From a virus: 41,214 nucleotides of DNA. Shown in pieces: positions 14,066 through 37,021 of this stretch (the stretch's first letter is position 1; every line of letters begins with the position of its first letter). The position numbers and the translations under genes were made by a program. The notes beneath the pieces are model-generated. The model was not told where the DNA came from and did no database searches. It saw only the letters and a list, made by a program, of their open reading frames with translations. The stretch covers positions 1 through 41,214 of IMG/VR virus record IMGVR_UViG_3300036766_000149, one strand, 5' to 3'.

Positions 14066-15667
14066 TTACATATTCTCCTCGTAGTCCCAACCGTTGTTAC
14101 TTGCAAGAATTTCTCCGAGATCACCCACAACATTGTCACGCCCTATCAAGATTTTACTTTCTGTTCCGCGTAACGCCTCCGGAGTAAACGCACCGATACC
14201 AAAACCACCAAGAGTGGCAAGATAGTAGTACAAAGTTGCAAAAACATAGTGGTCCTCACCAGTGGTGCTGTCCCATTGGTAACTTTCAATGCCTTTGTTG
14301 TCAGTAATCTTGATTCTACGCAGTGTTTCCCAGTGTTTTAGGTAGTTTTTTATCTCGGAATCAGAGGACAGACCAAATAAAATCTTGGCATTGAGTATTT
14401 CGTCAATAAGTTGGTCCAAAATCCTATTACGATTAGAGTAAACCACCCCAGCTTTGTCATTTTCACCCCACCAGACTATAGTTTTAGGGTTATTTTTGTT
14501 CTCTTGGAAGAACGACATCTGCGCGTTGCGATAATTTTCCACATAATACTTGGACATAGTGTTATCCGGCATGGCATCTATCACCAGTTTAGGCTTGTAC
14601 ATCTTCATCATATCGTCCAGATCCGCCCACTTGGTAAACCGCCCTATTTTTACCGGTCCCAGTTCACTACCAAGAACATAATGTTTGATATTTCCAACAT
14701 CCACCCCCAAAAACCACTTGCCCGTTTCCAAATTCCTAGGCGTCCAGTTATCCAAGATGGTAGATCGTCCCACGCGTATATCACCGGGAGAATATGGCTC
14801 ACCTAGAACGAAGTTGTAGAAGTATTCCTGGTCCCCCTCACTATCCTTTATGATTTCCACAGCATCTATCCAAGGCGCCATCAGTAGGGAAATGTGATAC
14901 CCAGAAATAGAGGCACCGGGGTTCTGTGCTACCCACCGTCCCATCCTACGATCAGCTTTGAATAGTTTGTTTTTACATTCCTTGCACTGATAAAACTTCT
15001 TTTCTATGTTGATACTTTCAGGAAAGGTAAGTGTTTGCTCGTGCTTACATTTATGGCAAGTAACCATCCATTCCTTTTTGTCGCTTTTATTCCACGCAAT
15101 ATCAATGGCATCCTTTTCAGTTGTAGGGTTAGAAAACAACCAGCGCCCTTTGAACTTACTGGCTTTGATACGAGATTTCATGGTATCTATCACGCTCTGG
15201 TCAGAGCGTGATGCCTCATCATGGATAAGTAGATCCGCTGTGGTCATAATCGCTGCCGTTTTTGACACCGTTCCTTTGAAGAACATAAATCTTCCATTGA
15301 GTTCCTTTCTCTCAATGTTGTCAGTGTTCATACCGCCAAAAACTTGTGGATTGGCGGCTATAATCTTGTTTGTTTTAGAAGAAACGAACTCCTGCACATC
15401 ACTGTCAGTAGGGAAAGTGTAGAGGATGTTCCAGCCAAATTTAATAATAGCGAATAACGCCTTTAGGTTGAATGATACGGACCCTCCTATCTGCGCACAT
15501 TTCTTAATAACAATTTCATCTGACCAGTCCGTCAGAATATCTATAAGAAATGGACGGTCCGCAAAATCCAGCATCTCACCTTTCTCACTTACAACCTGAT
15601 TTTCAAATATCCAAGTGAGTATGGAGAGATCCGAGCTTTTAACTTGTTGTTCCTTTTTTTTCTCCAT
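14066..15667 (-). CDS. Terminase large subunit, GpA type
   Basis: 533 aa from ATG 15667. A TTG ten codons upstream is in frame but unlikely. Near residues 55-65 KKCAQIGGSVS is the Walker A-like motif of the lambda gpA family, and LLIHDEAS is Walker B. A Cys4 zinc-ribbon follows (CHKCKHEQTL, then CKECKNKLF), as is typical of GpA-type proteins. The C-terminal nuclease has FLGVDVGN and VIDAMPDN as acidic motifs. The ATPase drives DNA packaging at the portal and the nuclease cuts concatemers. The gene overlaps the end of the methyltransferase gene by 29 bases, so translation is probably coupled. Confidence 0.95.
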   Translation of the reverse strand: MEKKKEQQVKSSDLSILTWIFENQVVSEKGEMLDFADRPFLIDILTDWSDEIVIKKCAQIGGSVSFNLKALFAIIKFGWNILYTFPTDSDVQEFVSSKTNKIIAANPQVFGGMNTDNIERKELNGRFMFFKGTVSKTAAIMTTADLLIHDEASRSDQSVIDTMKSRIKASKFKGRWLFSNPTTEKDAIDIAWNKSDKKEWMVTCHKCKHEQTLTFPESINIEKKFYQCKECKNKLFKADRRMGRWVAQNPGASISGYHISLLMAPWIDAVEIIKDSEGDQEYFYNFVLGEPYSPGDIRVGRSTILDNWTPRNLETGKWFLGVDVGNIKHYVLGSELGPVKIGRFTKWADLDDMMKMYKPKLVIDAMPDNTMSKYYVENYRNAQMSFFQENKNNPKTIVWWGENDKAGVVYSNRNRILDQLIDEILNAKILFGLSSDSEIKNYLKHWETLRRIKITDNKGIESYQWDSTTGEDHYVFATLYYYLATLGGFGIGAFTPEALRGTESKILIGRDNVVGDLGEILASNNGWDYEENM

Positions 15668-16286
15668 AGTAATCGCAGTATTTTTTATCAATTTCAAAAC
15701 CTAACACTTTTCTATTCAAATCTTCTCCTGCTTTCAAAATAGTTCCACTACCAGCAAACGGATCAATAATTAAATCCCCCTCTTTGGTTGTAGATAAAAT
15801 AATCCGCCTAGCTAATTCATAAGGTATGGGACAAGGGTGTGGATTATTTTTCTTACTAACATTTTTCACTTGGTTAATGTTCCACCAATCGTATGACTTT
15901 GCAGTTTTACCCTCTGCAATTCTTTTAGCAATTCGTTTATCTGTAGGATTTTTATATTCCTGTGGTATCTTCCTAAAATCAGGTTTGCAATTCCACCAAG
16001 TAATAAGACGAGATTGTTTTGCGGTGTTACTGTTGTAGACCCAAGTAACAACCTGGTCGCATCTGTCTAATATCTTTCCAAGAATGTTTATTGTTTCCTC
16101 TGGATAGTGAATTACCACCGCCTTATGACCACCAAATGCCTGAAGTAGCATTTCAGCATAGTCATCAATGTTCATGGTGTCAGCATACTTGTTGTAGTGG
16201 TAATCTTGATTGTAGGGTGGGTCGCTAATAATATAGGCGTCTTGCGTGAACTTATCTAAATGGTTTCTAAAATCGTCATTATACAT
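15639..16286 (-). CDS. DNA methyltransferase (N4-cytosine or N6-adenine), beta-type order
   Basis: 215 aa. The catalytic motif SDPPYN is at residues 21-26 and the S-adenosylmethionine site DPFAGSG at about 175-181, near the C-terminus. This motif order is that of the beta class. Between them TWVYNSNTAKQ and WWNINQVKNVSK look like the target-recognition part. DPPY allows either adenine-N6 or cytosine-N4 methylation. No restriction enzyme is near, so it is an orphan enzyme that may protect phage DNA or mark it for packaging. It overlaps the previous gene by 8 bases and terL by 29. It is short compared with many family members but has both motifs. Confidence 0.93.
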   Translation of the reverse strand: MYNDDFRNHLDKFTQDAYIISDPPYNQDYHYNKYADTMNIDDYAEMLLQAFGGHKAVVIHYPEETINILGKILDRCDQVVTWVYNSNTAKQSRLITWWNCKPDFRKIPQEYKNPTDKRIAKRIAEGKTAKSYDWWNINQVKNVSKKNNPHPCPIPYELARRIILSTTKEGDLIIDPFAGSGTILKAGEDLNRKVLGFEIDKKYCDYYGEKKGTTS

Positions 16287-22830: not shown

Positions 22831-24001
22831 CAAAGTCTTTGTTAGTCTGTATTGTATCATAAACTGCTTGGTCGTTCTCACCACCAATAAGGTGGATAAA
22901 AGTATTCTCATGGAGGTTGTTGATACGCTTCACTCGTCCTTTCATTTGAACATAGTCAACATATCGGAAAGACATTGAGGCAAAAATAACAACAGAGAAC
23001 TCTCCAGCATCAAAACCAGCGCCCATCTGTGCTTGGATAATGAAAATACAGTCGTCAGCAGATTTTGCTTCTTCAATTACCTTGTCCTGATCCTTAACGC
23101 TTCCATTCAAAACAAAGACAAGTCGTTGGTCGCCAATCCTTTTAACATAGTCATCTATCTGTGACCGGTAATGACAAACAATAATCACTTTACGGTATCC
23201 ATCTAACAATTCCTCTAACTTCTTCCATTTAGGTTCTCCTTGTTCTATCCGGTGTCGGTTATGCCACTCGGCAATAGGGCTGTCATAATCTTGACTTGCT
23301 ACTTCTTCTTCCTGTTTCTTTGTCCACGGTATCTGTATTGTTCGGTGGTGCTGGGTAGGGACATCAACACAGTCAGACATCAGAACAATATCTGATATAC
23401 CCTCAATATTAGGTCGTATCATTTTCTGCCATCCATATCTTTTCTCGTAGTGGTAGATACCAAACTTGTCGGTCATAAAGAAAAACTTATTACGGAAGTC
23501 CCGTATATCCCAGAAGATTTTTAGGTAACAAGCGAGAGTATGGATGTTCCAAGGAGTTGATCGGACCGGAGTAGCCGTTAAAAGCAAGATATAGGATTGT
23601 GGATGTTCTCTAACATATTTATAAACTACTTCTGCCCGTTTGGACCGGGATTTGTCAAAGAGTGGTGATGAATAGTCTTGCGCCTCATCTAGTACAATTC
23701 CTCCATAGTTTTTCAAGTCAATTTTCTTTATATCATCTCGTGAAAAAACATCCACCATCAAATGATCTCCCCATTCTTTTATATCTCGCTTCCATTTCTC
23801 AATTATTCCTTTAGGACAAGTTACTAAAAACTTTGTTTCTGGGCGTAATTTCATCCAACAAATAGCAGTGATTGATTTTCCAGTTCCGGTTTCATGTACC
23901 AACATAGCCTTGTCTGGATTTTTTTCAATAAAGCGCACTTGGTGAGCAAAAAGACTTTTATCTTTTGGCAGGTTTAGTTTTTGTAAATTTGTTATGGACA
24001 T
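22727..24001 (-). CDS. Superfamily 2 DNA helicase (Snf2/DEXH-like)
   Basis: 424 aa. Motif I is HETGTGKS (G39-S43), motif II DEAQ (105-108), motif III LTATP. In the C-terminal RecA-like lobe, VIIVCHYRSQIDDYVKRI and AQMGAGFDAGEFSVVIF are motifs IV-V, and YVQMKGRVKRI is motif VI. All helicase motifs look intact. Phage enzymes of this kind act in replication start, fork restart or recombination. The start at 24001 overlaps the end of an HNH gene by 44 bases, which may reflect the insertion of that gene. Confidence 0.93.
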   Translation of the reverse strand: MSITNLQKLNLPKDKSLFAHQVRFIEKNPDKAMLVHETGTGKSITAICWMKLRPETKFLVTCPKGIIEKWKRDIKEWGDHLMVDVFSRDDIKKIDLKNYGGIVLDEAQDYSSPLFDKSRSKRAEVVYKYVREHPQSYILLLTATPVRSTPWNIHTLACYLKIFWDIRDFRNKFFFMTDKFGIYHYEKRYGWQKMIRPNIEGISDIVLMSDCVDVPTQHHRTIQIPWTKKQEEEVASQDYDSPIAEWHNRHRIEQGEPKWKKLEELLDGYRKVIIVCHYRSQIDDYVKRIGDQRLVFVLNGSVKDQDKVIEEAKSADDCIFIIQAQMGAGFDAGEFSVVIFASMSFRYVDYVQMKGRVKRINNLHENTFIHLIGGENDQAVYDTIQTNKDFDVHDYLARTSSQVKQARGTHNPDRTKMVPEELPF

Positions 24002-24365
24002 GAATTTTCATATGTTCTGCACGAGTTACTAATTGTAGGTTTTTTGGATTATTATTGTGTTTATTATTATCTATATGGTGGACAATCTCATTAGTTTTTA
24101 GTTTTCTACCAATTTTCTTTTCCATAACTAATCTATGCTGGTGTTTCCCAAACTCTTTTATATATCCTTTTGTTCCAGTCCCACGCAAACTGATGGCGTA
24201 AAGACTTCCAATTTTTCCAGCTTTACTTTGATGTTCCGTTGTGCGTACCACTTTCAAGTGACATTGAACCGAGCAGTATTTTGCAATTACTCCAGCCTTA
24301 TCTCTCCCCACAAAAGAAGTCCCACATTTTTTACATTTTCTTGGTTTTGTAAATCTTTCTGGCAT
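23958..24365 (-). CDS. HNH homing endonuclease with N-terminal zinc finger
   Basis: 135 aa. A Cys4 finger (CKKCGTSFVG, then CSVQC) is followed by the HNH core HRLVMEKKIGRKLKTNEIVH and HIDNNKHNNNPKNLQLVT, ending RAEHMKIHVHNK. The core is close to that of the HNH gene at 28197 (both read NEIVHH or SEIVHH, then NLxxxTR). It is free-standing inside the replication operon and overlaps the helicase gene start. A strong promoter with leaderless spacing lies immediately upstream. Confidence 0.92.
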   Translation of the reverse strand: MPERFTKPRKCKKCGTSFVGRDKAGVIAKYCSVQCHLKVVRTTEHQSKAGKIGSLYAISLRGTGTKGYIKEFGKHQHRLVMEKKIGRKLKTNEIVHHIDNNKHNNNPKNLQLVTRAEHMKIHVHNKFTKTKPAKR

Positions 24366-28196: not shown

Positions 28197-28559
28197 ATGC
28201 CAAAAATTTTATTCAAAAAAGGAAATAAAATAAATCTTGGAAGAATACCAGGATCAGTAACTCGTAAAAAAATGAGGTTAGCTCATCTTGGCGAGAAAAG
28301 TCATTTATGGAAAGGTGGTAAAAAAATAGATAATGGATATATTTTTTTGTATAGAAAAACAAGAAAATATATATCAAAGCAAAGAGTTATTATGGAACAA
28401 TACTTGGGTAGAAAATTATTAAAATCAGAGATTGTTCATCATAAAAACGGAAACAAATTAGACAATAGAATAAAAAATCTTAAAGTAATGACGCGATCGG
28501 ATCATGCTAAACATCATTATAAAGATAGAAAAATTATTAGTAATGGACAATTCAAATAA
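28197..28559 (+). CDS. HNH homing endonuclease
   Basis: 120 aa. The core runs QRVIMEQYLGRKLLKSEIVH, HKNGNKLDNRIKNLKVMT and RSDHAKHH, close to the HNH gene at 23958-24365 but without its N-terminal Cys4 finger. The N-terminus (MPKILFKKGNKINLGRIPGS) is a short basic 'FKKGN' DNA-contact type segment. It is free-standing, one base after the previous stop, and has its own promoter. It is expected to nick or cut a conserved site near its insertion point. Confidence 0.9.
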   Translation: MPKILFKKGNKINLGRIPGSVTRKKMRLAHLGEKSHLWKGGKKIDNGYIFLYRKTRKYISKQRVIMEQYLGRKLLKSEIVHHKNGNKLDNRIKNLKVMTRSDHAKHHYKDRKIISNGQFK

Positions 28560-28571
28560 CAAATAAATACC

Positions 28572-29444
28572 ATGTTAAAAAAAGAAGATTGGTTTATTAA
28601 AAAAACAGTTAACCGTTATGGTGAAGATAGAACAGTAGAGACTTTTCGTGGAGGTAAACTAGCAATATGGATTGTTTTAGGACTGATCGCACTTATCTTC
28701 ATTTTTGGTTCATTCAGGATTATAGATGCCGGAGATAGAGGGGTAAAAGTAAGACTTGGTAATGTAGTGGGAACACTAGAACCAGGACTATATTTCAAGT
28801 TACCTTTTATTGACCAGATCCATTCTATAGATGTAAGAACACAGGGGGTGATTTATGAGAGAGAGAATCCTTTGACGGCCGCTTCTTCCGACCTACAGGA
28901 TGTGAATGTTGCTGTGGTTGTGAACTATCATGTTGATCCTGTAAAAGTTGCTGATCTCTATAAACAGTACAGAACTTTGGAAAATCACGAGGAAATTGTT
29001 ATCCGTCCTATTGTGCGAGATACAGTCAAAGCTATTTCTGCACAGTATGAGGCCGGACAGTTAGTTACAAAGAGAGCAGAGTTTGCTGGTAAAGTTGCAA
29101 CACTTCTTAATGAGAGATTGAATGGAAAGTTTATTGTTGTTGAACAATCAAACGTCACTGACATTAAATTCTCACCAGAGTTTAGTAAGGCGATTGAGGC
29201 AAAAGTAACAGCTGTGCAAAATGCAGAAGCATCAAAAAATAAGCTAGAGCAAATCAAATATGATGCTCAACAGACAATAGAAACAGCAAAAGCACAGGCA
29301 GAAGCTATCCGGATACAAGCAGAAGCTATCAACTCACAAGGAGGTGCTGACTATGTGGCCCTACAAAAGATCAAGGCGTGGGACGGTCACTCATGCGTTA
29401 GTTATTGTGGCCTAGATGCTATGTTTATAACACCAGGTAAATAA
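28572..29444 (+). CDS. Band 7/SPFH (prohibitin-like) membrane protein
   Basis: 290 aa. A membrane segment at about residues 30-50 (LAIWIVLGLIALIFIFGSF) is followed by the SPFH domain: RIIDAGDRGVKVRLGNVVG, LEPGLYFKLPFIDQIHSIDV, NVAVVVNYHVDPVKVADLY and VIRPIVRDTVKAISAQYEAG. A long Ala/Gln/Glu coiled coil (ETAKAQAEAIRIQAEAINSQ) follows. After KIKAWDG, where relatives usually end with a Gly-rich or Leu-rich tail, it ends HSCVSYCGLDAMFITPGK, with two Cys. SPFH proteins form membrane rings and often restrain proteases. In a phage it may control a host protease or organise the membrane for lysis or replication (inference). Confidence 0.92.
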   Translation: MLKKEDWFIKKTVNRYGEDRTVETFRGGKLAIWIVLGLIALIFIFGSFRIIDAGDRGVKVRLGNVVGTLEPGLYFKLPFIDQIHSIDVRTQGVIYERENPLTAASSDLQDVNVAVVVNYHVDPVKVADLYKQYRTLENHEEIVIRPIVRDTVKAISAQYEAGQLVTKRAEFAGKVATLLNERLNGKFIVVEQSNVTDIKFSPEFSKAIEAKVTAVQNAEASKNKLEQIKYDAQQTIETAKAQAEAIRIQAEAINSQGGADYVALQKIKAWDGHSCVSYCGLDAMFITPGK

Positions 29445-31190: not shown

Positions 31191-31631
31191 ATGCCAACAG
31201 GATACTCAAACAAAACTGGACAAAATCCATTCAAAGGAAAAAAGAGAAAACCTTTTACACTAGACCATAGACGAAAAATGTCTAAAGCTATGAAAGGAAG
31301 AACAGTGTGGAATAAAGGATTAAGAGGAGTACAAAAACATTCTCTTGAAACTAGATTAAAAATGAGTAAAGCAAGATCAGATGAAAAGCATCCTTGCTGG
31401 AAAGGAGATAAAGTGGGGTATGACGGTTTACACAGGTGGATTGGTAAAAAGAAAGGAAAACCAAAAAAATGTGCAGAGTGTGGAAAAACAAAAACAATTC
31501 AGTGGGCTAATAAGGATCACAAATATAGCAGAGATTTAGAGGACTGGATTAGTTTATGTTCAAAGTGCCATTATCATTATGATGAAAAATATCTAAAAAC
31601 ATTACATGGATACAACAGAACAAAAAAGTAA
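31191..31631 (+). CDS. HNH homing endonuclease with NUMOD3-like repeats
   Basis: 146 aa from ATG 31191. A longer in-frame reading would include the promoter and is rejected. The N-terminal part has NUMOD3-like DNA-contact repeats: LDHRRKMSKAMKGRTVWNKG and LETRLKMSKARSDEKHPCWK. The C-terminal HNH-like half has KCAECGKTKTIQWANKDHKY and SLCSKCHYHYDEKY, with the Cys pairs of zinc-stabilised HNH enzymes. It overlaps the glycosyltransferase gene start by 26 bases. It is free-standing, with its own strong promoter. Confidence 0.92.
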   Translation: MPTGYSNKTGQNPFKGKKRKPFTLDHRRKMSKAMKGRTVWNKGLRGVQKHSLETRLKMSKARSDEKHPCWKGDKVGYDGLHRWIGKKKGKPKKCAECGKTKTIQWANKDHKYSRDLEDWISLCSKCHYHYDEKYLKTLHGYNRTKK

Positions 31632-33873
31632 GCCAAAATTCTCAATCGTTGCTATTTGTAAAAATGAAGCCAAAACACTTCCAAAGATGATGACTTCTTT
31701 GAAAGACTTTATGGATCGTGGAGGTGAAGTAGTCCTCGTTGATACTGGATCCACTGATGGGACCGCGCAACTTGCACGTTCTCTTGGCTGTAAAGTGACA
31801 GAAGTAGGTGAAAAATTCATCACCACAATAGACGAAGATATGTCAGATAAGATAAATAGCAGATTTATTATTGATGGTGAACAAGCATTAGTTGCTCCTA
31901 GTAATCGCCTTTTTGATTTTGCTTCTGCTCGTAACTATGCAACATCACTAGCGGAGAATAATATGGTGGCGACTATGGATTGTGATGAGGAGTATACAAA
32001 GCTAAACATTGACGCGCTAAACTTTCTTATTGATGCCGGACACGAACAGTTTGAGTATCAGTTTGTCTTTGCGCATGACGGTTACGGTAGACCAGCAGTA
32101 CAGTTCGTACAATCCAAGTTCTTTGATCGTAGAAAGGTAAAATGGTCTGGTGTAGTGCATGAAGTACTATCTGGCGAAGCAAAGCGTGTGCTTGTTGGAC
32201 CGGAGACTATCCTCCTGGAACACTGGCAGGAGGCAGGAAAAGATCACCGAGGTAACTATCTTGTTGGTTTAGCATTAGACTGTTTCTTGAACCCCTCCAA
32301 AGACCGCCAGAGCCACTATCTTGCTCGTGAAATGATGTGGAATAGTAGACCAAAGTCCGCTATCAAAGAGTTTATGCGACACATTGGTATGGGAGGTTGG
32401 CTTGCTGAACGCGCACAATCCATGATCTATCTTGGTGACTGTCATGGCCAGTTGAACCAACCAGAGAAACAGATTCAGTGGTACAACCTAGCTTTTTACT
32501 TTGATCCGAATAGGCGTGAAGCGTTATTGAAGATAGCAACTTTCTATAAACACAATCAAAATCCACAAGCAGTAACAGTCTACGCCAAAGCATCACTAGA
32601 AATTCCTTGGACAGATTACTATGCCAACGATCGCGCTATGTACGAACAGTATCCGCATGAGCTTTTGTACTGGGCCTATGGATTTCTCGGTAAAATAGAT
32701 GAAGCAAAAAAACACATTCTTAGAGCATTGAAATATCAGCAATTCAATCCACAGTACCTTGCAGATACAAAATACTATTTTGAATATCCAGCAAACACTA
32801 TTGATGGTTGGATGACCTTTGAGGAGTTGACTTGGATATATGAGACAGCTAAAAGACACTACCATATTGCTGAACTTGGTAGTTGGAAAGGACGTTCTAC
32901 CCACGCATGGGCTTCTGGGACACGAGGAAACATAACGGCCATAGATACATGGGAGGGATCTGACTTTATTGGTGATGACACTAACAGATTAGCCAAACTA
33001 GAGGATGTCTTTAAGGTTTTTAAGGACAATCTAAAGCAATTTGATAACGTGGTTGTGAATAGAAAAAGGGGTATGGATGCTGTAAAGGACTACGAAGATA
33101 AATCCTTTGATGTCGTTTTCATTGATGCTGGACACACCTACGAGGATGTTAAAGCAGACATTGATGCGTGGCTACCAAAAGCAAAAATGGTTCTCTGTGG
33201 TCATGATTATTTGCCAGATGTTTGGATGGGAGTGATACAGGCAGTGGACGATAAGTTTGGAAAGCCAGATGGTGTTGCAGGATCTATTTGGTACAAATAT
33301 CTCGTTCCAAAAGTCACTTTTATTATCCCTACTCTCGGACGAGAAGCTGGACTGAAACTATGCCTAGAGAGCATAGAAAGACTGAATTATCCAAAGGAAC
33401 AAATAGAGGTGATTGTGATAGATGGAGAGGGAACAGTGCCAGAGAAAATGGCTCGTGGATATTCACAGGCAAAAGGTGAATACATTGTCTACGCAAGTAA
33501 TGATATAGCGTTTGAGCATAACAGTCTATGGGAAGCGTTACAGGATGCCGTTGATTTTGACCTTGTAGCTTTTAACACAGGTGCGATACTGCCAGATGAG
33601 GGTAACATTTGTGAACACTTCATGATCAAGAAAGACTTTGTGAAAGAAATCGGAGGTGAAATCTTTGATACGGATTTCCACCACGTTGGTTGCGATAATC
33701 TCCTATGGGCCAAGGCAAAGAAACTTGGTGAAGCCGTGCGCTGTGATGACGCTATCGTGCATCATTACCACTTCTCTACAGGTGCTAAAAAGGATGAAGT
33801 GTATGAGAAAGGGTGGAGTAAAGTTGAGGAGGATAGGGCATTACTCGCTAAGAAATTAAAAGAACTAGAATGA
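31606..33873 (+). CDS. Three-domain glycosyltransferase-methyltransferase-glycosyltransferase
   Basis: 755 aa. Domain 1 (about residues 8-230) is a family 2 glycosyltransferase: FSIVAICKNEAKTLPKMM, VLVDTGSTDGTAQ and ATMDCDEEY. A TPR-like helical part follows (about 230-400; RAQSMIYLGDCHGQLNQPEK). Domain 2 (about 410-565) is a class I SAM methyltransferase with IAELGSWKGRSTHAW, NITAIDTWEG and DVVFIDAGHTYEDVKADI. Domain 3 (about 570-755) is a second GT2-like fold, VTFIIPTLGREAGLKL, VIVIDGEGT and VYASNDIAFE. The first GT plus TPR resembles SunS-like enzymes. It probably builds and O-methylates a short sugar on protein or on the host surface. The substrate is not shown. Confidence 0.9.
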   Translation: MDTTEQKSKPKFSIVAICKNEAKTLPKMMTSLKDFMDRGGEVVLVDTGSTDGTAQLARSLGCKVTEVGEKFITTIDEDMSDKINSRFIIDGEQALVAPSNRLFDFASARNYATSLAENNMVATMDCDEEYTKLNIDALNFLIDAGHEQFEYQFVFAHDGYGRPAVQFVQSKFFDRRKVKWSGVVHEVLSGEAKRVLVGPETILLEHWQEAGKDHRGNYLVGLALDCFLNPSKDRQSHYLAREMMWNSRPKSAIKEFMRHIGMGGWLAERAQSMIYLGDCHGQLNQPEKQIQWYNLAFYFDPNRREALLKIATFYKHNQNPQAVTVYAKASLEIPWTDYYANDRAMYEQYPHELLYWAYGFLGKIDEAKKHILRALKYQQFNPQYLADTKYYFEYPANTIDGWMTFEELTWIYETAKRHYHIAELGSWKGRSTHAWASGTRGNITAIDTWEGSDFIGDDTNRLAKLEDVFKVFKDNLKQFDNVVVNRKRGMDAVKDYEDKSFDVVFIDAGHTYEDVKADIDAWLPKAKMVLCGHDYLPDVWMGVIQAVDDKFGKPDGVAGSIWYKYLVPKVTFIIPTLGREAGLKLCLESIERLNYPKEQIEVIVIDGEGTVPEKMARGYSQAKGEYIVYASNDIAFEHNSLWEALQDAVDFDLVAFNTGAILPDEGNICEHFMIKKDFVKEIGGEIFDTDFHHVGCDNLLWAKAKKLGEAVRCDDAIVHHYHFSTGAKKDEVYEKGWSKVEEDRALLAKKLKELE

Positions 33874-34076
33874 AAAAACACGAATTTTATGCACAATATG
33901 CAAATCTTCCACTAGATAAGAGGATGGTACCTTTGGATCTGATTAAATTTAAGGAACGGACAGCAAATGAACTATACAAAAGAATGAAAGAAACTGATGA
34001 TGTAATAAGAGGGATGGAAAAAGAACAAGAATATTTATTAGAAATAGCTAACGAGTATTTTCCACTATTAAAATGA
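33870..34076 (+). CDS. Small helical protein between glycosyltransferase genes, 68 aa
   Basis: ATG 33870 overlaps the stop of the previous gene (ATGA), and its own stop overlaps the next ATG. It is mostly charged helix (LIKFKERTANELYKRMKETD, then VIRGMEKEQEYLLEIANEYF). It could be a partner of one of the two glycosyltransferases. No family is recognised. Confidence 0.6.
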   Translation: MKKHEFYAQYANLPLDKRMVPLDLIKFKERTANELYKRMKETDDVIRGMEKEQEYLLEIANEYFPLLK

Positions 34077-34660
34077 TCCCTAAAAAAATCTTCACCGTAT
34101 GGCTGACCGACAACGACACAATACCAGTGTTGGTTGCAAAGTGTATAGCTTCACAGCACATACCGGAATATGAACATAAACTCATCACCTTAGAGAATTG
34201 CTACCACAACAAGTATATTGATGACGCGATCGCTGCAAAACAGTGGGGTAAAGCATGTGACTATCTCCGGATCCATTATTTGTTAGAGGAGGGAGGTATT
34301 TACCTAGACGCTGATGTAGAGATGCTACCGGGTAAAAACTTTGATTCACTACTTGGAAATTGTATGTTTGCTGGGAGAGAGAATAACGGCTTTGTAAATA
34401 CGGCCGTGTTAGGCGCTGAAAAAGGATACCATCTATTATCTGACCATCTGAAAGAAGTAGAAGCAAAATTCAAGGGTGATGATGGCTTGTACTTTGAGAG
34501 CAGTATTGAGATAATTACACCAAGACTACTTGGAGATGTAAATGTGCGTGTACTAGCTCCAGAGTATTTCTATCCGTACGACCACCAAAGAAACACAGTG
34601 GATATAAAGGACTTCACGATATGTTGGCATCACTTTATGAAAACATGGAAAAATTCTTAA
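34073..34660 (+). CDS. Family 32-like glycosyltransferase
   Basis: 195 aa. IPKKIFTVWLTDNDTIPVL is the standard 'IPkiiHqiW' start of GT32/OCH1-type enzymes. KACDYLRIHYLLEEGGIYLD is the donor-binding helix and strand, and D79-A-D81 is the metal-binding DxD. NNGFVNTAVLGAEKG and the end TICWHHFMKTWKNS match the family pattern. It transfers a sugar from a nucleotide donor. It is coupled to the GT-methyltransferase fusion through the 68-aa gene, so the three likely make one glycan. Confidence 0.9.
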   Translation: MIPKKIFTVWLTDNDTIPVLVAKCIASQHIPEYEHKLITLENCYHNKYIDDAIAAKQWGKACDYLRIHYLLEEGGIYLDADVEMLPGKNFDSLLGNCMFAGRENNGFVNTAVLGAEKGYHLLSDHLKEVEAKFKGDDGLYFESSIEIITPRLLGDVNVRVLAPEYFYPYDHQRNTVDIKDFTICWHHFMKTWKNS

Positions 34661-34776: not shown

Positions 34777-35021
34777 AAATAAAAACTAAAATAAATCCTA
34801 AACAACTTCCTTGTCGTTGGTGTGGAAAGAAAACTGGTATAAGGAAGTTCTACATCATAGCTGACGACTTGGAATCACCCAAGCCGTACCATGTGGCTTG
34901 TATACGCAAGTTGCAGATAGAGGTGATGATGAAATTATCAGATTCTAAAATGCAAATAAACAATGACAAACCCAAACGAAAAGGGATTCAATCCCGGAGG
35001 AGTAAAAGATCGTTACGATAA
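34773..35021 (+). CDS. Small zinc protein, 82 aa
   Basis: ATG 34773 (MKIKTKINPKQLPCRWCGKK). CRWC and the later HVACI form a CxxC...HxxC metal site of the kind seen in small zinc proteins. The C-terminus is basic (DKPKRKGIQSRRSKRSLR) and overlaps the endolysin gene by 59 bases. It could bind nucleic acid. Confidence 0.6.
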   Translation: MKIKTKINPKQLPCRWCGKKTGIRKFYIIADDLESPKPYHVACIRKLQIEVMMKLSDSKMQINNDKPKRKGIQSRRSKRSLR

Positions 35022-36021
35022 TCGTGACTATCAGTGGCATGAAGTTGGCTATGGCACTATGCCTTTTGACTGGAATACTGGTTTTGATATTGAATCAAAA
35101 CTAGGTTTCAAACTTAAAGTTAAGGACCAGAACGGTTCGTATTCTTGTGGTGGACAAGCGTGGAGTTATCTCGCAGAGGTACTTGAAGCGCTTAACACAA
35201 ATACTTATGAACCTCGTAGTGCGAAATACATTTACGCACAAACATATGTTCCTAGTGGTGGATCTGCTGGACGCGATAACTCAAACATCTTTTGTAAACA
35301 AGGTGTGGCAGAAGAAAGCAAACTTCCCTCCTATGATAGTGGTCAACCTCCACAAGAGGGATTCATGCGAAGAAGTGAGGATATAACATATGAGATTCGT
35401 AACAATGCCAAACTCTCAATGGCATCATCCTATGCACAAATAGGAACAGATATTGAAAGTTTTGCCACTGCGATTCGTGATAACGGTGGGGCGATCATAG
35501 GTATCACTGGATCAAACAATGGAACTTGGAATAGTATTGCTCCATTTCCACCAGTTCCAGGAGCTGATCTTTGGTATCACTGGATCTATTGTGGTAAAGC
35601 AAAGATAATTAGTGGTAAGAAACATATAGGAGTATTTAATTCATGGGGTAACGCTGCGGGAGATAATGGTTGGCAGTGGATTTCCGAAGATTATTTCAAA
35701 ACTCTCATATATATTTTTAGTGGTTGGACCCATGTATATAATGGAAATCCTCCCGTTGCACCTTTCAAACATACTTTCACCAAGACATTAGACTATGGTA
35801 TGTCTGATCCAGAAGTGCAGTGGCTACAAAAAGCCCTCACACTAGAGGAATGTTTCCCAGATACTATTTCACCAACACTATTCTTTGGTAATGTAACTAA
35901 ACAGTCAGTACAGAAATTCCAAGTAAAGTACAACATTGTATCGTCAGGATCGTCATCAACGACTGGTTTTGGCAGGGTTGGTCCCAAGACCTTGGCAAAA
36001 CTCAATTCTATATACGCTTAA
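34963..36021 (+). CDS. Endolysin-like papain-fold (C1A) peptidase with peptidoglycan-binding domain
   Basis: 352 aa. Residues about 15-255 form a papain-like protease: Q56-N-G-S-Y-S-C62-G-G-Q-A is the oxyanion Gln and nucleophile Cys, LWYH206W holds the likely catalytic His, and FN226SWG the catalytic Asn. Residues about 268-350 form a peptidoglycan-binding repeat (LDYGMSDPEVQWLQKALTL, FFGNVTKQSVQKFQVKYNI, FGRVGPKTLAKLN). No signal peptide is seen. It is last in the plus-strand block, next to the shared terminator, opposite a holin gene. Cutting cell-wall peptides at lysis is the probable role; a virion-borne role is possible. The repeat style is typical of Patescibacteria proteins. Confidence 0.85.
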   Translation: MTNPNEKGFNPGGVKDRYDNRDYQWHEVGYGTMPFDWNTGFDIESKLGFKLKVKDQNGSYSCGGQAWSYLAEVLEALNTNTYEPRSAKYIYAQTYVPSGGSAGRDNSNIFCKQGVAEESKLPSYDSGQPPQEGFMRRSEDITYEIRNNAKLSMASSYAQIGTDIESFATAIRDNGGAIIGITGSNNGTWNSIAPFPPVPGADLWYHWIYCGKAKIISGKKHIGVFNSWGNAAGDNGWQWISEDYFKTLIYIFSGWTHVYNGNPPVAPFKHTFTKTLDYGMSDPEVQWLQKALTLEECFPDTISPTLFFGNVTKQSVQKFQVKYNIVSSGSSSTTGFGRVGPKTLAKLNSIYA

Positions 36022-36026
36022 TGAAA

Positions 36027-36059
36027 AGGCGACCAAAGGCGAGTCACTTTTAGTCGCCT
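36027..36059. terminator. First hairpin of the terminator cluster
   Basis: AGGCGAC (36027-36033) pairs with GTCGCCT (36053-36059). A second AGGCGA (36037-36042) could pair instead. It starts 5 bases after the endolysin stop and may slow RNA polymerase before the main terminator. Confidence 0.55.
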
Positions 36060-36203: not shown

Positions 36204-36749
36204 TTAGTTTCTAGCTACTGACATAGTATATTGATTTTTCCAATACTTTGACAAGTCTGTCTTTGTTTTTTCTTTGTGGCATGGCTTACATAGAGTTTGA
36301 CCATTACTTATTCTATATCTTAACTTCGGAAATTCACACCATGGTTTTATGTGATCTGCTTCCAGTTTTCCTCCTCTTTCTTTACATTTTACGCAAGTAT
36401 GGTTATCTCGCTTAAATACTTTTTCTCGCCAACTTGCATATCGTGGGTGGTCCATTTCACGAATCGGGATAGTGGTTCTCATTCCTTTATTCCACGCCAC
36501 TGTTATTCCATGAAGTCCTTTATTCCAGGGTACAGATCCTTTCTTAAACTCTGACTTAATAGATACTCTTACCCCTTTTGAAGTTCCACCACCAATAAAA
36601 CCATGACCTTTTTTGAAACCATATTTTTTCCCAAACCAAGAAAAACCTTTATTCCAGGGTACAGATCCTTTCTTAAACTCTGATTTTGGAGATAAGTGTT
36701 TCCCCATTAGTAATGACGGCTTAACTCTTTTATATATTCCTGATGGCAT
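36204..36749 (-). CDS. HNH homing endonuclease with duplicated DNA-contact repeat
   Basis: 181 aa. The C-terminal core has REKVFKRDNHTCVKCKERGG, KLEADHIKPWCEFPKLRY and NGQTLCKPCHKEKTKTDL, a standard HNH with two CxxC pairs. The N-terminal half is made of basic motifs, with SEFKKGSVPWNKG present twice (about residues 23-35 and 66-78). The DNA of these two copies is identical over 38 bases. It lies at the 3' end of the late block after the holin gene and has its own promoter with a perfect -35 box. Confidence 0.93.
   Translation of the reverse strand: MPSGIYKRVKPSLLMGKHLSPKSEFKKGSVPWNKGFSWFGKKYGFKKGHGFIGGGTSKGVRVSIKSEFKKGSVPWNKGLHGITVAWNKGMRTTIPIREMDHPRYASWREKVFKRDNHTCVKCKERGGKLEADHIKPWCEFPKLRYRISNGQTLCKPCHKEKTKTDLSKYWKNQYTMSVARN
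36517..36554 (-). repeat. 38-base direct repeat inside the HNH gene, copy 1
   Basis: Identical to 36646-36683, 129 bases away. It encodes the second SEFKKGSVPWNKG motif of the enzyme. Confidence 0.9.
36646..36683 (-). repeat. 38-base direct repeat inside the HNH gene, copy 2
   Basis: Identical to 36517-36554. It encodes the first SEFKKGSVPWNKG motif. Perfect identity at third codon positions points to a recent duplication or gene conversion. Confidence 0.9.
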
Positions 36750-36757
36750 TTAACCCC

Positions 36758-36785
36758 AGTCTATACTCCAGTAGCTTTTTGTCAA
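36758..36785 (-). promoter_or_regulatory. Promoter of the last HNH gene, near-leaderless
   Basis: On the minus strand a perfect TTGACA (36785-36780), a 16-base spacer and TAGACT (36763-36758) end 8 bases before ATG 36749. It occupies the whole gap between the holin gene and the HNH gene. Confidence 0.6.
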
Positions 36786-37021
36786 TTACCTAATGTTGAT
36801 TTTGTGGAACTCCAAAGACCAGACGCACTTAATCCTGCTACGATTCCTTGTAGGATACTTGCACTGTTAAAATTAAGACCACTTATTACAAATGATCCTG
36901 CGACACCTAGTACAAGTGATACTAGAGGCGACCAGCGTGAAGATAGACCAGCAACTTTAATTGCTTGTACTACTCCCAACACGACAGGCACGAGAACAAT
37001 AAACTGCGTTGAAATTTCCAT
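36782..37021 (-). CDS. Holin, two or three membrane spans
   Basis: 79 aa. Hydrophobic segments are FIVLVPVVLGVVQAIKVAGL (about residues 8-27), LVSLVLGVAGSFVISGL (about 33-49) and ILQGIVAGLSASGLWS (about 56-71). Size, spacing and the 'LLG...SA.GL...' end match small phage holins. It makes holes in the membrane to trigger lysis, releasing or activating the endolysin encoded on the other strand. The gene follows the 1231-aa gene by 43 bases and carries a GTTAAC box 10 bases before its ATG. Confidence 0.85.
   Translation of the reverse strand: MEISTQFIVLVPVVLGVVQAIKVAGLSSRWSPLVSLVLGVAGSFVISGLNFNSASILQGIVAGLSASGLWSSTKSTLGN

Follow-up and report, generated by a model that had tools for sequence, protein, structure and literature searches.

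A predicted papain-type endolysin with a Patescibacteria-type wall-binding domain in a viral genome record

Most of the ultra-small Patescibacteria, although abundant, have yet to be cultured, and to our knowledge the way in which their phages exit the cell is poorly understood. This question is raised by one gene of the IMG/VR virus record IMGVR_UViG_3300036766_000149, of which positions 1 to 41,214 were analyzed here (41,214 nucleotides, hereafter the window). An earlier inspection of the letters alone (the sequence-only reading) had proposed that the gene encodes a papain-fold lysis enzyme with a wall-binding repeat of Patescibacteria style. On the basis of the current results, we consider it likely that the product serves a tailed phage of a Patescibacteria host (Parcubacteria side) as a wall-anchored cysteine-peptidase endolysin that depends on a holin. 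The corresponding features are:

34963-36021, plus strand: 352-aa predicted lysis enzyme of papain (C1-like) type, directed at the wall (ORF call, PHROGs, phmmer, relatives)
35059-35748, plus strand: predicted catalytic papain-fold domain, approximately residues 33-262 (active-site residues, predicted models)
35128-35130, 35146-35148, 35578-35580 and 35638-35640, plus strand: codons for Q56, C62, H206 and N226 within the catalytic domain
35806-36003, plus strand: peptidoglycan-binding domain (PG_binding_1), Patescibacteria-type (Pfam; nearest matches in Patescibacteria)

The position and strand given for the open reading frame by the sequence-only reading were exact. Pfam analysis identified PG_binding_1 (PF01471) at residues 282-347 (E 2e-5, 25.1 bits against a cut-off of 23), and the papain part matched PF03051 at E 0.12, under the curated cut-off; two relatives of the lysin, L075 (2.8e-7) and L168 (2.2e-8), passed the cut-off of PF00112. 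The best phmmer match was xylellain (3ois), a bacterial C1 protease (E 7e-5), and PHROGs assigned the protein to phrog_1493, 'endolysin' (7.8e-7). The motif RVGPKTLAKLN, with which the peptidoglycan-binding (PGB) domain had been said to end, is present at residues 338-348 and is followed by SIYA; the supposed repeat is one single PG_binding_1 domain and not an array. No signal peptide, membrane segment or hydrophobic N-terminus was found in the lysin sequence.

The papain-type active site had been read correctly, with Q56, C62, H206 and N226 all in place and W228 also present beside them. The residue order of the papain family (peptidase C1, PF00112), that is, Q...C, H and N/D-SW, is thus found in the lysin and is conserved in its relatives: among 13 aligned relatives, the catalytic Cys was invariant, the Gln and His were retained in at least 90%, and the position of N226 was mostly N, with D or S in some. 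Because these residues are conserved across the 13 relatives, a chance occurrence of the set can be excluded. Two AlphaFold2 models were built from the window lysin and viral relatives (mean pLDDT 55.5 and 61.7), in which the core and the PGB domain were confident and approximately residues 1-31 and 87-156 had low confidence. Foldseek matched the model to cathepsin B (E 4e-8), and both models aligned to papain and cathepsins with Z scores of about 15, for instance the first with Der f 1 (5vpk; Z 15.5, 201 residues, 3.3 A) and the second with cathepsin K (6ql8; Z 15.3, 155 residues, 3.2 A); with xylellain the score was 14.4. In the modelled lysin, C62 opens a long helix (62-79), H206 lies on a strand (203-216) and N226 follows another strand (219-225), which is the arrangement known from papain. 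The models support a papain fold for the catalytic part, and in the predicted cysteine peptidase Cys62 would be the nucleophile, His206 the base, Asn226 the orienting residue and Gln56 the oxyanion residue.

To which host does the wall-binding domain point? When 84,980 species genomes were scanned with an alignment of the PGB domain, 68 of the best 80 loci carried titles of Patescibacteria lineages (mostly the Parcubacteria group), the titles of the remaining 12 named no lineage and none of the 80 named another phylum, although the scan pattern was derived from phage sequences and is biased in this respect; the Giovannonibacteria lineage was checked for the assignment of the loci. On one database scale, the domain scored 77 bits against Patescibacteria loci (E 9e-16), compared with at best 38 bits for plasmids (E 0.05) and 32 bits for phages (E 2). 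This unbiased comparison agrees with the scan and points to a domain of Patescibacteria type. Secreted Patescibacteria proteins with a C-terminal PG_binding_1 (L096 and L093) have near-identical ends (GIVSSGTPSTTGYGLVGPKTRSKLNEIFGQ compared with NIVSSGSSSTTGFGRVGPKTLAKLNSIYA in the lysin). However, these proteins are cellular and, unlike the lysin, none of the 80 loci contained an NSWG/DSWG papain motif.

The sequence-only reading had suggested searching Patescibacteria genomes, and papain-type relatives with a wall domain were indeed found there in phage regions; these searches covered Patescibacteria genomes only and relied on a profile restricted to the catalytic domain. In G154, a terminase gene lies at approximately 6.6 kb and the lysin gene at 30.2 kb, with an adjoining CHAP gene followed by GltX, GH113 and ABC transporter genes. 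In G205, where the C1 domain is joined to DUF5675, the contig also bears genes for GatB, GltX, CysS and transketolase. The C1+PGB architecture was present on a 35-kb phage contig of G249 and, in a class-level search, in G692 (capsid and portal genes upstream), G265 (with terminase and portal genes) and, as a frame-broken copy, G488; the phage contigs of G249, G265 and G692 all carry capsid, portal or terminase genes. Most of these genomes are metagenome-assembled, with possible binning errors for phage-only contigs such as that of G249, and G205 and G154 provide the safest host links because phage and housekeeping genes share one contig. With every one of the 80 best PGB loci either Patescibacteria or without a lineage name, and C1 lysins occurring in phage regions of this group, the pointer to a Patescibacteria (Parcubacteria) host is well supported.

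The same searches yielded several other proteins. In 357 genomes from the same class as G040 (a Pacebacteria genome), every C1 protein detected lacked a wall domain, and L189, L221 and L222, which also have a C1 domain without a wall domain, look cellular and were rejected as lysins. Weak matches L169, L170 and L172 were discarded as FtsX-like membrane proteins beside ABC-transporter genes. A 483-aa protein of G193 (L171:925-2376) is a single chain made up of a papain-type domain and an M23-type endopeptidase part, and its gene adjoins another candidate wall-enzyme gene. The G205 protein (L168:1483-2634, on the contig bearing housekeeping genes) has its papain domain fused to DUF5675 (1e-23), which suggests that DUF5675 may be a wall- or lysis-related domain.

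Among viruses, the statement that C1A-type endolysins are uncommon in known phages was borne out: a tblastn search of 50,697 phage records with the protein gave nothing at E <= 0.01, and plasmids likewise yielded no significant match. A scan of viral contigs with the whole protein also returned nothing, and relatives surfaced only via the wall-binding domain and alignments. Papain-like viral proteins do occur in predicted-structure libraries. Three full-length relatives were identified: G037/L080 (58% identity, range 56-58%, with an identical active site and the C-terminus GFVGPLTRAKLNSLFS), G036/L075 (28% identity) and CDS 288-1337 of MW202577, the single distant phage relative, which was reached via a homologue. 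Scanning viral contigs with the PGB alignment alone revealed five contigs, two of them already known, and a papain-like N-terminus was present in all five (degenerate in L217). Two candidates were rejected, H1 (MT837636) as a chance match within an ABC-transporter ORF and L076 as a match in the PGB motif only, inside a tape-measure-like protein.

The lysin is the sole detectable gene shared by G037 and the window phage, and it is absent from the nearest whole-genome relative, G002 (terminase 89%), which has a different ORF after its homologue of a 1231-aa protein; we therefore infer that the lysin travels between phages as a module. A lysis-module swap between the sister phage G002 and the window phage is likely. 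In relatives, the C1 domain is paired with PG_binding_1, DUF5675 or an M23-type endopeptidase part. As regards G002 itself, the ORF after the 1231-aa-homologue gene (L060:6774-7280) encodes a lysozyme-like protein of 168 aa with no Pfam match and occupies roughly the place of the holin in the window. A 219-aa ORF of the same phage (L060:3415-4074) contains a long Ala/Arg/Trp-rich repetitive tract (AAWAARAARAAWAAEVAGEA...), and translation in an overlapping frame gives a Gly/Ser repeat.

Such mobility bears on the host. Domain swapping is common in endolysins, and a lysin that moves between unrelated phages, as its isolated sharing with G037 implies, could have acquired its binding domain from a Patescibacterium and still serve a phage of another host. 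We regard this explanation as quite unlikely, since the same architecture recurs in all five PGB-matched viral contigs and the terminase, the product of an unrelated gene, is likewise closer to homologues from Patescibacteria than to those of cultured phages:

14066-15697, minus strand: terminase large subunit (phrog_675, 1.7e-82)

With a profile built from the terminases of the window and seven viral relatives, matches were obtained in 5 of 380 Patescibacteria genomes (1e-96 to 1e-111). Pairwise identity to the five was 31-34% (E 1e-70 to 1e-87), compared with approximately 25% (about 1e-26) for the best of 681 phage records; within this comparison of Patescibacteria genomes and phage records, the link is one of distant kinship. 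Two of the matches lie inside contigs of 1,096,538 and 818,817 bp and are therefore integrated prophages (G231:C1:342292-343791 on the 1.10-Mb contig and G070:C1:470890-472383 on the 0.82-Mb contig). A gene neighbouring the window terminase (15639-16286) is syntenic in four of the five. No C1 lysin was detected by profile in the terminase-bearing prophage regions of G201, G231 and G070 or, over their first 20 kb, in the contigs of G212 and G252.

The assignment to a phage of Patescibacteria being preferred, the next question is how the enzyme would reach the wall. Three further features lie beyond its gene:

36029-36047, minus strand: terminator-like hairpin (weak consensus match) in the intergenic space where the lysin gene and the HNH/holin genes converge
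36204-36749, minus strand: HNH endonuclease between lysin and holin (PF01844, 1e-8)
36782-37021, minus strand: holin, 79 aa, two TM segments (phrog_1299, 2.9e-17; weak Pfam holin families)

The window phage thus has the layout of an endolysin system: a catalytic and a wall-binding domain in one protein without signal peptide or TM segment, and a holin in the genome. Because it has no TM segment or hydrophobic N-terminus, the lysin would need a release partner. The holin gene lies approximately 760 bp away on the opposite strand, in which most relatives differ, their membrane ORF being on the same strand, and despite this it is likely to be the partner. In 8 of 12 lysin relatives, a short membrane ORF (50-110 aa) follows on the same strand within 250 bp, whereas this was the case for 10 of 137 ORFs of at least 250 aa in the same kind of sequence, the lysins themselves counted in. 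It could be argued that the protein is a virion-associated or injected protease used for entry or capsid maturation, as the gene stands outside the holin operon and ends a run of genes on the opposite strand. The holin-like neighbours in relatives, the wall-binding domain and the PHROGs endolysin match make such a role very improbable.

In the favored lysis mechanism, the enzyme, lacking a signal peptide, would accumulate in the cytoplasm until released by the 79-aa holin; its C-terminal domain would then dock on the host wall, being the same kind of PG-binding module as that of the host's own exported proteins, and the N-terminal papain-fold peptidase would cleave an envelope peptide bond. 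Papain-type enzymes usually cut bonds between L-amino acids, and for this reason peptidoglycan is not an obvious substrate. Nevertheless, a stem or cross-bridge peptide of peptidoglycan is the most likely target, and a wall or S-layer protein is a possible one. Several relatives have candidate partner wall enzymes (an adjoining CHAP gene in one, transglycosylase-like ORFs, and M23 in the same chain), so that some phages could use a pair of enzymes in which the C1 member cuts protein. Taken further, cutting of the glycan might be left to a separate enzyme while the wall-anchored protease strips S-layer or PG-bound proteins. In favor of this, peptidases of family C1 act as endopeptidases on proteins, candidate second enzymes occur beside or in relatives, and Patescibacteria can encode S-layer-homology proteins (PMC13059738). 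However, neither PHROGs scans of the window nor tblastn with five genes of candidate partners found a second wall hydrolase there, and we consider this division of labor unlikely. Equally doubtful is the broader proposal of a mobile lysis cassette common to the phages of Parcubacteria-like Patescibacteria, with a protein-cutting papain-type peptidase as its enzyme and a host-derived wall-binding domain as the anchor of that enzyme; the hosts would then be opened largely by envelope proteolysis (S-layer or wall-bound protein) and not by glycan or amidase cleavage.

Several other genes of the window deserve mention. At 31606-34660, a 755-aa protein consists of two glycosyltransferase parts, TPR and a methyltransferase (PF00535, PF13712 and PF13578). 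Next come a small ORF and a glycosyltransferase resembling those of capsular synthesis; this region just upstream of the lysin is possibly a cassette for host-surface glycan modification. The phage also encodes a Band 7/SPFH domain protein (28572-29444; PF01145, 1.2e-36), which is unusual in so small a phage. Genes for HNH endonucleases number at least four (740-1231, 23958-24365, 28197-28559 and the one between lysin and holin), one of the others overlapping the start of a helicase gene.

With a recognizable lysin architecture as a marker, viral contigs beyond the reach of CRISPR could be assigned to a host, and the lysin is a candidate reagent to open these epibionts or remove them selectively in co-culture, which would make their wall biology testable. 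Our literature search found no description of such a lysin in Patescibacteria phages, and within that literature a C1+PGB lysin family tied to these phages appears undescribed. With regard to known systems, the phrog_1493 profile covers lysin residues 199-348 (the PGB domain and the last part of the catalytic domain) on 151-306 of its 394 positions, the match being weak (29.6 bits) and the active-site Cys region lying outside the alignment. Xylellain, a C1 cysteine protease of Xylella fastidiosa, is the nearest solved sequence relative and has the same fold; it is a cellular protease whose matched region, unlike the lysin, has no PG-binding domain. The MW202577 protein (Manatee Spring phage, 'hypothetical protein') has the domain order of the lysin and membrane ORFs on both sides, but it is only about 18-20% identical and has lost the SWG motif. 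Finally, papain-superfamily endolysin domains are already described: the N5 domain of mycobacteriophage Lysin A is a papain-family/C39-like endolysin domain (PMC3314691). It is C39-like, acts with other hosts and binding domains and gave no visible sequence match to the window lysin, yet both are papain-superfamily cysteine peptidase domains of endolysins.
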